Source of the DNA: Mumia xiangluensis
Lineage (GTDB): Bacteria; Actinomycetota; Actinomycetes; Propionibacteriales; Nocardioidaceae
NCBI RefSeq assembly: GCF_010994095.1
Contig: NZ_WJYO01000001.1
Coordinates: 1,054,001-1,118,000 of the forward strand
Direction of reading: 5' to 3'
DNA length: 64,000 bases
A model generated the notes under the pieces. It made no database searches. It saw only the letters and a program-made list of their open reading frames with translations, and was not told where the DNA came from. Positions 16,226 to 48,166 of the stretch are shown in pieces (the stretch's first letter is position 1; each line of letters opens with the position of its first letter). Position numbers and translations under genes: made by a program.

Positions 16226-16876
16226 GTGGACGAGAGCGGGGTCGAGGCAGAGGTCGGGGTCGGCCCGTGGGAAGGCGCGTGGCCCGACGACCCGCGCCTG
16301 GACCCGGACCTGCTGCGAGACGGCGACCGGCGCAACGTCGTCGACGCGTACCGCTACTGGTCGATGGAGGCGATCGTCGCCGACCTCGACACGCGCCGTC
16401 ACCCGTTCCACGTGGTCGTCGAGAACTGGCAGCACGACCACAACATCGGGTCGATCGTGAGGTCCGCGAACGCGTTCCTCGCGGCGGAGGTCCACGTCGT
16501 CGGCCGCCGCCGCTGGAACCGGCGCGGGGCGATGGTCACCGACCGCTACCAGCACGTACGGCACCACGCTGCGGTCGAGGACCTGATCGCGTGGTCACGC
16601 GAGTCGAGGGTGCCGCTGATCGCGATCGACAACGTCGAGGGGTCGCGACCGATCGAGCGGGCGGAGCTCCCGCGAGAGTGCGCGCTGGTGTTCGGCCAGG
16701 AGGGCCCGGGGCTGTCGGGCGAGCTGCTTGACGCTGCCGACGCGGTGCTCGCGATCACGCAGTTCGGGTCGACACGCTCGATCAACGTCGGTGCGGCCGC
16801 AGCGGTCGCGATGCACGCGTGGGTCGCGCAGCACGCCGTGATCCCGGGCGCCCCGTCCCCGATTTGTGGGGTTTGA
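16226..16876 (+). CDS. TrmH/SpoU-family RNA 2 prime-O-methyltransferase
   Basis: A 216-residue SPOUT-class methyltransferase that methylates a ribose 2 prime-OH in tRNA or rRNA with S-adenosylmethionine. The three family motifs are present: NWQHDHNIGSIVRSANAF (motif 1, near 73-90), LVFGQEGPGLS (motif 2) and SINVGAAAAVAMH (motif 3), which form the trefoil knot. The start GTG 16226 is 7 nt behind TAGGTT at 16213-16218 (leaderless); codons at 16217 and 16220 overlap the hexamer. The stop codon and last four codons (ICGV) lie in the 5 prime arm of a long palindrome. The RNA target is not predictable. Confidence 0.9.
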   Translation: MDESGVEAEVGVGPWEGAWPDDPRLDPDLLRDGDRRNVVDAYRYWSMEAIVADLDTRRHPFHVVVENWQHDHNIGSIVRSANAFLAAEVHVVGRRRWNRRGAMVTDRYQHVRHHAAVEDLIAWSRESRVPLIAIDNVEGSRPIERAELPRECALVFGQEGPGLSGELLDAADAVLAITQFGSTRSINVGAAAAVAMHAWVAQHAVIPGAPSPICGV

Positions 16877-16918
16877 CAAGGAAATGAGCCGGGGATTCCT
16901 TGTCAGACTCCACAAATC
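16861..16918. repeat. Long palindrome, 23-bp arms, at the end of the TrmH gene
   Basis: Arms 16861-16883 and 16896-16918 are inverted copies with two mismatches, around a 12-nt loop. The 5 prime arm begins GATTTGTGGGG and the 3 prime arm ends CTCCACAAATC. It is much longer than a simple terminator and lacks a U-tract. It may act as a bidirectional transcription stop or be a dispersed palindromic repeat. The TrmH stop codon (16874-16876) lies inside it. Confidence 0.85.
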
Positions 16919-16957
16919 GCGGACGAGAGGGGTGCTGGCGCCACCTAGGCTCGACCC

Positions 16958-28217: not shown

Positions 28218-28259
28218 ACGACGAGGGATCCCGGCCAGATGGCCGGGATCCCTCGTCGT
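28218..28259. terminator. Bidirectional terminator hairpin between purB and the ABC permease
   Basis: Arms 28218-28236 and 28241-28259 are 19 nt long, perfectly complementary, with an AGAT loop. It lies between two convergent genes 26 nt after the purB stop and 17 nt from the permease stop. A short T-run is almost absent, which is common in high-GC actinobacteria. Confidence 0.85.
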
Positions 28260-37123: not shown

Positions 37124-37167
37124 GACGGGATTCCGGCGGCAGGTAGACTTTCCGCCGGAATCCCGTC
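37124..37167. terminator. 16-bp hairpin whose loop carries the purS -10 element
   Basis: Arms 37124-37139 and 37152-37167 are perfectly complementary (16 bp). The 12-nt loop contains TAGACT at 37144-37149, the same hexamer used at purA, purC and the LytTR gene. For transcripts arriving from the acyl-CoA synthetase it can act as a terminator; transcripts starting here would begin within the 3 prime arm and lack the hairpin. Confidence 0.8.
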
Positions 37168-44223: not shown

Positions 44224-46530
44224 GTGACCGACGCGCCTGCCGCCACCGCCCCGCCCGCCAAGTTCCGCCTCGACACCGTCGAGCACGCCGACGCGACCCC
44301 GGACCACGAGCAGCCTTGGGCCGACCTGGGCCTGAAGGCCGACGAGTACGCCCGGATCCGCGAGATCCTGGGCCGCCGGCCCACCGGGGCGGAGCTCGCG
44401 ATGTACTCGGTTATGTGGAGCGAGCACTGCTCCTACAAGTCGAGCAAGGTGCACCTCAAGAAGTTCGGCGAGCTCCCGCAGGAGACGCCGCTGGGCAAGA
44501 CGCTCGCCGGGATCGGTGAGAACGCCGGCGTGATCGACGTCGGGCAGGGCTACGCGGTCACCTTCAAGGTCGAGTCGCACAACCACCCGAGCTACGTCGA
44601 GCCCTACCAGGGCGCTGCCACCGGTGTCGGCGGCATCGTCCGCGACATCCTCGCGATGGGCGCCCGCCCGGTCGCCGTGATGGACCCGCTGCGCTTCGGC
44701 CCGCTGGACGCACCCGACACGAAGCGCGTGATGCCGGGGATCGTCGCCGGAGTCGGCGGCTACGGCAACTGCCTCGGCCTGCCCAACATCGGGGGCGAGG
44801 TCGTCTTCGACGAGACCTACCTCGGCAACCCGCTCGTCAACGCGCTGTGCGTGGGCGTCCTGCGCCACGAGCAGCTGCACACCGCCCACGCGTCGGGCGA
44901 GGGCAACCAGGTCGTCCTGTACGGCGCGCGCACCGGCGGTGACGGCATCGGCGGCGTGTCGGTGCTGGCGTCGGAGACCTTCGACGCTGAGGGCCCGGCG
45001 AAGCGGCCGAGCGTCCAGGTCGGCGACCCGTTCATGGAGAAGCTCCTGATCGAGTGCACGCTGGAGCTGTTCGACGCCGAGGTCGTCGCCGGCATCCAGG
45101 ACCTCGGCGGGGCCGGCCTCTCGTGCGCGACGAGCGAGCTCGCCAGCGCGGGGGACGGCGGCATGCACGTCGAGCTCGACACGGTCCCGCTGCGCGACTC
45201 CACGCTCTCGCCCGAGGAGATCCTCATGAGCGAGTCGCAGGAGCGGATGATGGCGGTCGTCGAGCCTCGGCACCTCGACCGCTTCATGGAGATCTGCGCC
45301 AAGTGGGACGTGGAGGCGACGGTCGTCGGCGAAGTCACCGAGACGGGCCGTCTGGTGATCGACTGGCACGGCGAGACCGTCGTCGACGTGCCCCCGCGCT
45401 CGGTCGCGCACGACGGCCCGACGTACGAGCGGCCGTACGCCCGCCCGGACTGGCAGGACGCTCTCCAGGCCGACACGACGGCCTCCCTCGCGCGTCCGGC
45501 GAGCGGCGACGAGCTCCGTACGACGCTGCTCGACGTGCTGAGCTCGCCGAACCAGGCGGACAAGTCGTGGATCACCGACCAGTACGACCGCTACGTCCGC
45601 GGCAACACCGTTCTCGCGCAGCCTGAGGATGCCGGCGTCATCCGCATCGACGACGACACCAACCTCGGTGTCGCCGTGTCGACCGACTGCAACGGGCGGT
45701 TCGCCAAGCTCGACCCGTACGCCGGCGCGCAGCTGGCGCTCGCCGAGTCGTACCGCAACGTCGGTGTCTCGGGCGGCCTCCCGCTCGCGGTCACCGACTG
45801 CCTGAACTTCGGCTCGCCCGAGGACCCGGCGGTGATGTGGCAGTTCGAGCGGGCCACCGCTGGCCTCAAGGACGCCTGCGCGGTGCTCGGCATCCCCGTG
45901 ACCGGCGGCAACGTGTCGTTCTACAACCAGACCGGCGAGACCGCGATCCTGCCGACGCCCGTGGTCGGGGTGCTCGGCGTCGTCGAGGACGTCACCAAGC
46001 GCATCAAGCAGGGCTTCCGCGCGGATGGCGACGTCGTGCTCGTCCTGGGCACGACGCGCGACGAGCTCGACGGCTCGGCGTGGTCGCAGGTCGCGCACCA
46101 GCACCTCGGCGGGGTTCCGCCGCAGGTCGACCTGGCGGCCGAGAAGGCGCTGGCGGACCTGATGGTGGAGGTCGCCAAGCAGGGTCTCGCGACGGCCGCC
46201 CACGACCTGTCCGACGGTGGTCTCGCGATTGCGCTCGCCGAGGCGTCCATCCGCAACGGCGTCGGCGCGAGGGTGGCGTTCGAGGGCGCTGGGCTCGACA
46301 GGAACGTGTTCGAGGCGCTCTTCTCCGAGTCGGCCGCACGGGCGCTCGTCACCGTCGCAGCCTCGGACCTACAGGGCTTCACGGCGCTCGCCGCCTCGTA
46401 CGGGGTGCCGGTCACTCGGATCGGGACGACCGGTGGCGACGCTCTCGCCGTCGAGGGGCAGTTCTCGATCCCGGTCACGGAGCTCCGAGACCGCTGGACC
46501 GCGACGATCCCGGCGGTCATGGGCGCCTGA
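44224..46530 (+). CDS. purL: FGAM synthase large subunit PurL
   Basis: A 768-residue synthase subunit that converts FGAR to FGAM with ATP and ammonia from PurQ. Signatures are [67 protein letters not shown] and [24 protein letters not shown]. The length (about 740-770) is that of the small type that needs PurS and PurQ, both present 6 kb upstream. GTG 44224 is 6 nt behind TACCCT (44212-44217). The gene is followed by the palindrome at 46539-46579. Confidence 0.96.
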
Positions 46531-46532
46531 TC

Positions 46533-46579
46533 CTTCATCGTGCAGGATCGGTGCCACAGGCTGACACCGATCCTGCACG
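46533..46579. repeat. Palindrome A flanking the AbiEi/DUF559 gene, perfect 15-bp arms
   Basis: Arms 46539-46553 and 46565-46579 are perfectly complementary around an 11-nt loop. CTTCATCGTGCAGGATCG (46533-46550) continues to TGCCAC at 46557; this 25-nt left side recurs with one difference at 47585-47609. The element lies between the convergent ends of purL and the nuclease-like gene and can also serve as a terminator. Confidence 0.88.
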
Positions 46580-46580
46580 T

Positions 46581-47534
46581 TCACGCGCCGTCCACGATCG
46601 CGCAGTCAGGGGAGGCGCAACGCTCTGGCTCTCCGGTCCACCCGTGCTGCTGAAGGATCAGCGCGAGCTTCGCCGCCGTACGGCACGGCCAGCGAAACAC
46701 CTGGCCCCAACCCAGCCTCGCGGTGGGGCGCCCCTCGACGAGGACGTCGAGGTGACGGTCGAGATCGCTGTCGCGCTGCGTGGCGCTCTCGTGGTAGATC
46801 CGGCCGTCGAGCTCGACGACGAGCAATCGAAGGTCCGCGTCGCGATAGACCGTCCCCTCGCTCCCCACCGCCTTCAGCTGTCGGCGTGCAGCGGGGAGTC
46901 CGTGCGGGTGTTCGACCCGGCGCAGGTATCCGTGCTCGAGAACCGAATGCGTCCCTGAGGCGATGTCGGCGAGCACGGCCCGGAACCAACGGCGCCGCCT
47001 GACCCGAGCTCGCCGGCGCATCACGGACAGGATGCGGTCGGCGGTGGTCCGCCGGCTCGCGCACGCCCGCGCGAGCACGGCGACGCCGTCGATCTTGTCG
47101 TCGCACTCGGTCGCCAGGTCGAGGACTGCCTCCTCGTAGTGCAGCCGGGGTGGAGACCGGTTCCACGACACCATCGTCTCGAGGTCCTTGCGACGCGTCA
47201 CGCGAAGCCCTGGCTGCTTCGCGACATCACGGCGTCGGTCGATGGCGACCTCGACGACGTCGTCTGCGGTGGAGTCGAGGCGTACCCGCTCGGCGGCCCG
47301 GATCGCGGACTCGCCCGACAACGCCGCCGGCCATGCGTACAGCACAGCCCCCCACGCCCGCTGCCTCCACGTCGCTGCGCCGGTGTGGTCGAGGTACACG
47401 CCCGGAAAGAGTGGGCTCAACTCACGTCGCCTCAGCATCCGCCGGATGTGGTGCGGCCGCAGCCCGACGTCCAGCAGCTGTCGGCGCGCGATCACCCCAG
47501 ACTGCTGGGCGAGCATCTCGTCCCATGGTTGCAC
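46581..47534 (-). CDS. AbiEi-antitoxin-domain protein with C-terminal DUF559/Vsr-like nuclease domain
   Basis: A 317-residue protein. Residues about 5-50 (LAQQSGVIARRQLLDVGLRPHHIRRMLRRRELSPLFPGVYLDH) form the winged-helix domain of AbiEi-type antitoxins. After a middle region with AALSGESAIRAAERV, the C-terminal ~85 residues (YRDADLRLLVVELDGRIYHES ... DRHLDVLVEGRPTARLGWGQVF) match the restriction-like DUF559/Vsr fold, with D and E-x-D in place of the usual D/ExK core. No AbiEii toxin gene accompanies it. GTG 47534 is chosen; the open frame continues upstream into palindrome B, which is unlikely to be coding. Such solitary proteins are frequent in actinobacteria and their role is unknown. Confidence 0.78.
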   Translation of the reverse strand: MQPWDEMLAQQSGVIARRQLLDVGLRPHHIRRMLRRRELSPLFPGVYLDHTGAATWRQRAWGAVLYAWPAALSGESAIRAAERVRLDSTADDVVEVAIDRRRDVAKQPGLRVTRRKDLETMVSWNRSPPRLHYEEAVLDLATECDDKIDGVAVLARACASRRTTADRILSVMRRRARVRRRRWFRAVLADIASGTHSVLEHGYLRRVEHPHGLPAARRQLKAVGSEGTVYRDADLRLLVVELDGRIYHESATQRDSDLDRHLDVLVEGRPTARLGWGQVFRWPCRTAAKLALILQQHGWTGEPERCASPDCAIVDGA

Positions 47535-47584
47535 CGCACCAGCGTGCTCCGGGCGGTCGCCGTCGCGCGTGCCTCGTCCACAGG

Positions 47585-47634
47585 CTTCATCGTGCAGGAT
47601 CGATGCCACCATTCGGCACGGATCCCGCACGATC
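47585..47634. repeat. Palindrome B flanking the AbiEi/DUF559 gene
   Basis: CTTCATCGTGCAGGATCG at 47585-47602 extends through ATGCCAC to 47609 and matches palindrome A over 24 of 25 bases in the same orientation, 1052 bp away. The right half (47616-47633, GGCACGGATCCCGCACGA) pairs with the left arm with three mismatches. It lies 50-100 bp upstream of the nuclease-like gene, where its promoter or operator should be, and just before the GNAT promoter. Confidence 0.85.
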
Positions 47635-47665
47635 GAGCAAGGCAGCAGACCCCTAGGCTGGCACC

Positions 47666-48166
47666 GTGTTCCCGACCCGCGCGTACGCCCGTGACGCGGA
47701 GGCCATCGTCGCTCTGCGTGACGACCTCGCGCGGTGGCAGGTCGCGTCCGGGCTCGTCCAGTGGCAGCCCGGTGAGGTGACCCCCGACCAGGTGCGCGAG
47801 CAGATCGCGGACCAGCAGTGGTGGCTCCTGCGCGACGACGGCGCGATCAGCGCGACGGTGCGCGTGCTGGAGGCCGACCCGCGGATCTGGGACGACCTCG
47901 TGGCGCCGGAGGACGCTGACGCGCTGTACGTCCACGGGCTGATGGTGCGCAGGACCCACCGCGGCCGCGGGCTCGGGACGGTGATGCTCGACTGGGTGGC
48001 GGAGCGGGTGCGCGACGCCGGTCGTACGATCCTGCGGCTCGACTGCGCGGCCGCCAACCCGTCCTTGCGGGCCTACTACGCCGGGCTGGGGTTCACCGAG
48101 CGCGGCGTCCGCGAGTTCGACCCGCCGTGGCGGCCGCTCGTCCGTCTCGAGAAGTCGGTCGGCTGA
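47666..48166 (+). CDS. GNAT family N-acetyltransferase
   Basis: A 166-residue GCN5-related acetyltransferase. The acetyl-CoA pyrophosphate loop is LMVRRTHRGRGLGTVMLDWV, preceded by ALYVHG and followed by LRLDCAAANPSLRAYYAGLGFTERG, the usual C-terminal motif. The substrate cannot be inferred. GTG 47666 lies 6 nt after TAGGCT (47654-47659), so it is leaderless. Palindrome B ends 20 nt before the hexamer. Confidence 0.9.
   Translation: MFPTRAYARDAEAIVALRDDLARWQVASGLVQWQPGEVTPDQVREQIADQQWWLLRDDGAISATVRVLEADPRIWDDLVAPEDADALYVHGLMVRRTHRGRGLGTVMLDWVAERVRDAGRTILRLDCAAANPSLRAYYAGLGFTERGVREFDPPWRPLVRLEKSVG

Follow-up and report, generated by a model that had tools for sequence, protein, structure and literature searches.

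A solitary AbiEi/Vsr-type nuclease-like gene between palindromes in Mumia: one case of a recurring, possibly REP-like architecture in actinobacteria

A solitary nuclease-like gene of an actinobacterium of the genus Mumia lies between two copies of one palindrome, and this locus is one case of a recurring actinobacterial architecture. The reading to which we assign a probability of about 0.6 is that of a REPtron-like unit, in which a nuclease combining an AbiEi-type winged helix with a Vsr/EDxHD-type domain would read its own palindrome, cut or nick the DNA and in this way drive the copying of the palindrome.

Layout of the locus

The window, by which we mean the whole stretch of 64,000 nucleotides that was analysed, comes from genome G000 (genus Mumia, 4.62 Mb). 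The gene (46581..47534, minus strand) encodes a protein of 317 amino acids and was delimited by means of the ORF list, profile matches, a homologue-supported start and a structure model. Its stop codon is located at 46581-46583 and its GTG start codon at 47532-47534; a longer ORF reaching to 47630 is disfavoured because it would overlap the 5' palindrome and because homologues back the GTG codon. The neighbours are a purL-like gene (AIRS/AIRS_C, FGAR-AT linker), whose ORF ends at 46530, and a gene for a GNAT acetyltransferase, which starts at 47666, and neither a toxin-type gene nor an AbiEii nucleotidyltransferase partner is present among the genes adjoining the element, which agrees with the earlier note on this DNA, where the gene had been placed between purL and an acetyltransferase without a toxin partner.

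Both palindromes are 41 bp long; relative to the gene, the 3' copy (46539..46579) forms 17/18 arm pairs and the 5' copy (47591..47631) 14/18. Repeat comparison delimits two direct copies of 50 nt on the plus strand, 46533..46582 and 47585..47634, the second being identical to the first at 40/50 positions. The observation from which the earlier note started, a 25-nt sequence repeated in the same orientation with one difference and delimiting a unit of 1052 bp, was reproduced exactly (46533 and 47585, same strand, 24/25 identical, spacing 1052), and each 25-mer is, as had been claimed, one half, namely the left one, of a complete palindrome (46539-46579; 47591-47631). The 18-nt stem has three matches with at most 3 mismatches in the window, two of them exact, versus a mean of 0.07 in shuffles. 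By sequence inspection, a DnaA-box-like motif, TCGTCCACAG, occupies 47574..47583 in the gap that separates the 5' palindrome from the start of the gene, and Rfam gave no match at 46400-47750. Two more strong hairpins of the window, at 28218-28259 and 37124-37167 (19/19 and 17/18 arm pairs, respectively), are possibly terminators or other solo palindromes.

Fold and conserved residues of the encoded protein

Pfam-type matches of the window protein are weak (AbiEi_4, 19.7 bits with a cut-off of 25; MTES_1575 REase, 14.1 bits with a cut-off of 38.2), and PADLOC matches it to AbiEi with an E-value of 5e-5; the fold assignment rests on a structure model. An earlier model derived from 10 sequences was poor (pLDDT 66.7) and was replaced by an AlphaFold2 model based on a 75-row alignment (pLDDT 95.1, pTM 0.89). 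In this confident model, residues 1-192 are predicted to comprise an AbiEi-like winged helix and a middle domain, and residues 196-299 a Vsr/EDxHD-like nuclease domain. In VIA-align, the C-terminal domain (residues 197-299) matches best the catalytic domain of the homing endonuclease I-Bth0305I (3r3p; Z 10.6, rmsd 2.3, 95 aligned), followed by NGO0050 (3hrl; Z 9.9, rmsd 2.5, 89 aligned) and Vsr (1cw0; Z 9.0, rmsd 2.3, 97 aligned), and residues 1-192 were aligned by the same program with AbiEi 6y8q (Z 9.4, rmsd 3.9, 178 aligned). Foldseek ranked AbiEi best (E 8.8e-5) and Rv2827c (1zel) second (E 8e-4; Z 6.3 in structure alignment with the window protein), I-Bth0305I reaching just E 0.22. The residues E200, D232, E241, H248, and D257 are kept in 74 of the 75 rows of the family's own alignment, the remaining row being gapped at each of them; judged from the aligned sequences, such acidic and histidine residues are what an enzyme still serving as nuclease would keep. 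The proposal that an AbiEi winged helix is joined to a DUF559/Vsr-like nuclease is thus supported by the structure model, but the Pfam-type calls stay below the cut-offs. For the C-terminal part, for which a restriction-type fold had been proposed, the model predicts a Vsr/EDxHD-like nuclease of that kind (pLDDT 95).

Recurrence of palindrome-bracketed genes

Genome G000 contains relatives of the window gene with 71, 65, and 28% identity, each of which is located between two copies of a palindrome that differs from gene to gene, and the comparison of insertion sites described below revealed two more, one in G000 and the other in G002. The protein family is present in 90 of the 148 searched genomes of the class, with up to 12 members per genome; plasmid records gave no match to the family and a search of phages for relatives one partial match. 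For the quantitative analysis, 86 elements were counted, consisting of the window, its Mumia relatives, loci of named genomes (51 loci, mostly from Nocardioides and Gordonia), and loci of other genomes of the class, the class-level loci being the best-scoring ones among the matches listed rather than a random draw. L148 and L149 were added to the set after the site comparison. Several rows were dropped beforehand: L044 and L045, which duplicate the Mumia quercus loci L036 and L041; L086, L088, and L092, which are only partial matches; L185 and L186, whose contigs were taken to be identical to those of L061 and L064; and L194 and L210, which lie at contig ends. The G001 relative L146 and a decayed G002 relative, L143, are outside the count.

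At a score of at least 18, a bracketing repeat was detected in 65 of the 86 elements (Mumia 14/15, named genomes 34/46, other genomes of the class 17/25), versus 24 of 558 control pairs of windows elsewhere in the same loci and 0/30 among DUF222 genes drawn from 20 genomes; at a score of 24, the corresponding numbers are 54/86 for the elements and 4/558 for the control pairs. The remaining 21 of the 86 elements have no detectable bracketing repeat. A first test with 50 loci that still included L044, L045, L086, and L088 had given 36/50 at the threshold, and one with 27 class loci 18/27. Strong palindromes occur on both flanks of 41/86 elements, compared to 1/386 background pairs and 0/30 DUF222 genes, and on at least one flank of 76/86 elements, compared to 40/386 in the background. 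The orientation is clearly direct in 29 of 54 related palindrome pairs, clearly inverted in 10, and undecided in 15. The idea that bracketing palindromes are a general trait of actinobacterial nuclease-like genes was ruled out by the DUF222 set (0/30). In one member, L199 (1501-2379 plus flanks), the bracketing repeat is 115 nt long, by far longer than in the other members, and its ends are inverted.

The DnaA-box-like motif recurs as well. The sequence TCCACAG, often in the form GTYnTCCACAGG, follows the 5' palindrome and precedes the gene in 76/86 elements (within about 170 bp upstream); its median distance to the protein match is 80 bp, and 65 occurrences are in one orientation and 11 in the other. 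It was present in 53/59 of the first elements versus 11/1848 background windows of 160 bp; it is not entirely specific to the elements, since 6/30 DUF222 genes also have it in the 250 bp upstream. The motif presumably resembles the DnaA box (TTnTCCACA), and a tie of the element to replication through it is a guess.

Palindrome types and their relation to the protein

Each lineage has its own palindrome, and a common palindrome for all AbiEi/DUF559 genes was thereby ruled out. The expectation that the palindrome of the window would be found next to other such genes consequently failed for this very sequence outside close relatives, but held in the modified form that the genes have palindromes of their own (65/86). 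Similarity between palindromes rises with the identity of the proteins (Mantel r 0.56, 0/500 permutations; 68 elements with a usable palindrome, host kinship being left in this figure), and in a regression on palindrome similarity the winged helix had a weight of 0.38, the middle domain of 0.16, and the nuclease domain of 0.09. The two palindromes within one element have a mean identity of 0.76 (45 elements). At site G, the elements of G000 and G002 have different palindromes, each of which is matched within its element.

Compensatory changes in the arms of window-type palindromes are above the level of shuffles (10 cells versus 3.3; 0/500); in the palindromes of the G129 type, the arms scarcely vary and covariation is not above shuffles (6 cells versus 8.1). 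Such compensatory changes fit a hairpin and a two-fold symmetric duplex site alike.

A second REP-like palindrome family was noticed in the window at 16855-16924. This palindrome is 70 bp long, with arms around CCGATTTGTGG..TTTGACAAGGA that also show compensatory changes, and half-sites number 15 in G000, 8 in G002, and 1 in G005, with none in G001, G003, and G004 and none for the reversed control. A scan of 12 loci (11 places) revealed no AbiEi/Vsr-type nuclease gene, at least 5 further G000 places lying outside the scan.

Insertion sites in six Mumia genomes

Seven insertion sites were compared over six Mumia genomes, one per species, wherever the flanks were found. Site A, the purL-GNAT junction of the window, is filled in G000, G002, and G003 and was not found in G001. 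It is empty in G005 and G004, where the matched flanks are 6 and 44 nt apart, respectively, and where the junction lacks both gene and palindrome, so that the empty junction for which the earlier note had proposed to look does exist in relatives. Neither gene nor palindrome is present at site B in G004 and G005, at site C in G003 and G005, at site D in G002, G003, and G004, and at site G in G003. Other gene-less sites, namely site C in G002 and G004 and site D in G001 and G005, contain a solo palindrome that is of a different type; palindromes therefore gather at sites C and D also without the gene. One of the two palindromes is gone in L041 (G003) and L042 (G004). At site B, the G001 gene (L037) is inverted relative to the flanks and has a different palindrome when compared to L033, L040, and L041, which reflects either an inversion between palindromes or an independent insertion at the same place.

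In the protein tree, clades join genes of different sites (A+C, 100/99; A+B+C, 100/100; D+F+G, 100/98), i.e. related genes occupy several places, and together with the gene-less sites this shows gain or loss. No recent jump was seen among the genomes compared (one per species). At the gene-less sites inspected, no target-site duplication was detected, the comparisons being between species and the element ends being palindromic. Two gene copies, at site C of G000 and at site F of G005, contain an internal stop.

Solo palindromes

A pattern search of G000 at 3 mismatches yielded 70 matches versus 33 for the reversed control and, being too noisy, was replaced by a covariance model for window-type palindromes, which was built from 9 sequences and run on the six Mumia genomes, the best 150 candidates per genome being scored. 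With strands merged, window-type solo palindromes outside elements number 5 in G000, 3 in G002, and 5 in G003, i.e. in the genomes with the site-A gene, three of the G000 solos matching by construction because they are among the 9 sequences behind the model; the genomes without this gene gave one weak match (G001) or no match at all (G004, G005), again among the best 150 candidates each. According to their flanks, just one solo site is common to two Mumia genomes. Three G003 solos have an identity of 0.84-0.90 to the element of G003 itself, versus 0.63-0.75 to others, but just 5/13 Mumia solos are closest to the element of their own genome, the G000 and G002 types being too similar to be separated. 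One solo of G003, L216, stands as a cleanly inserted piece of about 42 bp when the site is compared with that of G002. Another one, L218, is accompanied by a TCCACAGG motif like that at the 5' end of an element and is missing from G004; it may be a relic of a lost gene.

Seven genomes of genus g39 (f20) contain 61, 87, 54, 26, 23, 15, and 11 copies of the half-palindrome that belongs to element L206; five genomes from other genera contain 1-4 each, and the reversed-pattern control gave 0-1. As judged from coordinates and sequences, a family gene is bracketed by an L206-type palindrome or half-palindrome in at least five of the seven g39 genomes (G129, G046, G064, G139, and G118). When 20 copies of G129 away from L206 were compared, fetched from roughly two dozen complete palindromes, they were alike over 56-58 bp and not further. 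Genome G139 of the same genus also contains four inverted pairs of half-palindromes that are about 230-280 bp apart rather than 38, e.g. at C1:5908617-5908866 and C1:5978838-5979087, and possible interpretations include longer MITE-like elements on the same ends.

A third palindrome type was searched in 22 genomes of Nocardioides, Gordonia, and Ruania, all with elements (L055 and L080 were left out of 24). The four cognate Nocardioides genomes contain 6, 11, 5, and 11 half-sites and the 18 others 0-3, with 0-2 for the reversed control; after subtraction of the element's own sites, about 3, 10, 2, and 9 half-sites remain, so that compared to the 0-3 of the others the excess is small in two of the four. 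Palindromes are abundant mainly where the cognate gene is present, as observed in few, related genomes and with low solo numbers in Mumia and Nocardioides. The label of a self-contained mobile cassette given to the locus in the earlier note is only partly right: gene and palindromes are gained or lost at sites, but what scatters is mainly solo palindromes of about 42-70 bp, and the gene stays put for long, site A being common to three species.

Comparison with known systems

So far, a single enzyme class has been associated with REP palindromes. As far as extracts of two studies describe it (PMC2817692, PMC6006769), RAYT genes are bracketed by their own palindromes and co-evolve with them, REP abundance is tied to the presence of the gene, there is generally one gene per palindrome type, and the gene is stable while the palindromes are thought to be mobile. 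The same extracts describe RAYTs as Y1 HUH transposases whose flanking REPs are inverted and have a GT(A/G)G head. RAYT homologues meeting the criteria of one study were restricted to gammaproteobacteria in the part available (PMC2817692), and Actinobacteridae, in the corresponding part of the other, carry subclass 1.1 only (PMC6006769), which we take from that part to be the insertion-sequence subclass. The elements described here are similar in that a gene is located between its own palindromes, that both co-evolve, and that solos occur mainly where the gene is. They differ in encoding a Vsr/EDxHD-like nuclease, in the length of the palindromes (about 40-70 bp), and in the mostly direct orientation of the pairs. 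A Y1/HUH transposase (PF01797) was matched in 0/13 genomes, 5/14 controls being positive, and a RAYT as hidden mover was thereby ruled out for these 13 genomes. With no Y1 transposase in the 13 genomes and with a REase fold, the elements are outside the REP/RAYT class, yet they appear to work alike; the parallel drawn in the earlier note, a restriction-fold enzyme with flanking palindromes of its own in place of a RAYT, is supported for an enzyme family with a predicted Vsr/EDxHD-like fold, 65 of the 86 counted members being bracketed.

With the EDxHD enzyme I-Bth0305I and with Vsr, the window protein shares the predicted nuclease fold and possibly the set of conserved acidic and histidine residues, and the palindromes of 40-70 bp are comparable in length to the target of I-Bth0305I, on which this enzyme dimerises over nearly 60 bp according to the excerpted part of a review (PMC3943268). 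In contrast to these enzymes, the elements combine the nuclease with an AbiEi-type DNA-binding half, have palindromes on both flanks, and are intergenic rather than intronic. Residues 1-192 match AbiEi 6y8q and also Rv2827c (1zel); unlike in AbiE toxin-antitoxin systems, the window gene has no toxin-type neighbour and its nuclease is fused C-terminally. By a weak profile match and by fold, the MTES_1575/DUF559 Vsr-like REases belong to the same broad family, the window protein being below the Pfam cut-offs. From this family, a Caulobacter DUF559 Vsr-like protein has been linked to DNA damage in the summary available (PMC12907096), and an MTES_1575-type domain is part of a large HEPN fusion, the accessible section of that report not mentioning palindromes (PMC3710099). 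Among the matches listed in a search of the open-licence literature (titles and abstract starts), there were no AbiEi/DUF559/Vsr-type genes with flanking palindromes, and in the main text of a REP survey (PMC3733652) the names Frankia, Gordonia, Nocardioides, and Streptomyces and the word stem actinobacter- are absent.

Proposed mechanism and alternative explanations

In the REPtron-like unit, palindrome, DnaA-box-like motif, nuclease gene, and palindrome would follow each other in this order. The nuclease would read a symmetric palindrome of 40-70 bp, most likely as a dimer, and would cut or nick the DNA there; the cutting would drive the copying of the short palindrome into new intergenic places, and now and then the entire unit of palindrome, gene, and palindrome might be copied. 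The gene and its palindrome type would co-evolve, with the solo palindromes as putative non-autonomous offspring. Cut and gap repair, hairpin copying, and homing-like conversion are candidate reactions for the movement of the palindrome. Recognition of the palindrome by the nuclease, binding as a dimer, cleavage, and cleavage as the cause of the dispersal are what we infer from the architecture.

The palindromes might instead be operators (and insulators or terminators) of an autoregulated gene, both copies being bound by the AbiEi winged helix without any mobility. The AbiEi-like character of the N-terminal half, the 5' palindrome directly upstream of the gene, and the fact that the palindrome tracks the winged helix best all fit such a role, but we consider it unlikely, since it leaves the 3' copy and the solos elsewhere, the presence or absence of a bare palindrome, and the conservation of nuclease-type residues unexplained, and since DUF222 genes of 20 like genomes do without such palindromes (0/30). 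A free-standing selfish gene of the homing type, whose nuclease would cut element-free sites and which would be copied together with its palindromes by host recombination, would turn the palindromes into landing pads or scars and the solos into relics. I-Bth0305I as best match of the C-terminal domain, the existence of gene-less sites, and solo L218 with the adjoining TCCACAGG, a possible relic, point in this direction; it is nevertheless improbable in our view, because 20 copies in one genome which are alike over just 56-58 bp are not expected of relics, most gene-less sites lack a matching palindrome as target, and intact elements retain two putative target sites.

It is also conceivable that another, unseen enzyme spreads the palindromes and that the nuclease gene is a passenger between two of them. 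The second REP-like family, which lacks such a gene at the 12 loci scanned, the solos of other types at sites C and D, and the putative nature of the nuclease mechanism itself would be in line with this; the recurrence of a single gene family between palindromes, the sequence of which predicts the palindrome type, and the lack of a Y1 transposase in all of 13 genomes (0/13) make it very unlikely.

Implications

We see about an even chance that actinobacteria own an independently evolved REP system, in which an AbiEi-EDxHD/Vsr nuclease, perhaps controlled by DnaA, would bind as a dimer to a private palindrome of 40-70 bp and seed copies of it genome-wide. If true, a second, unrelated enzyme with the genetic logic of REP would exist across actinobacteria, and the mobility of short palindromes would have evolved convergently. 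Many orphan genes of the AbiEi/DUF559 type would then be explained, the keeper of each dispersed palindrome would become predictable for each genome, and a family of long-site nucleases with many natural specificities would be available for study.
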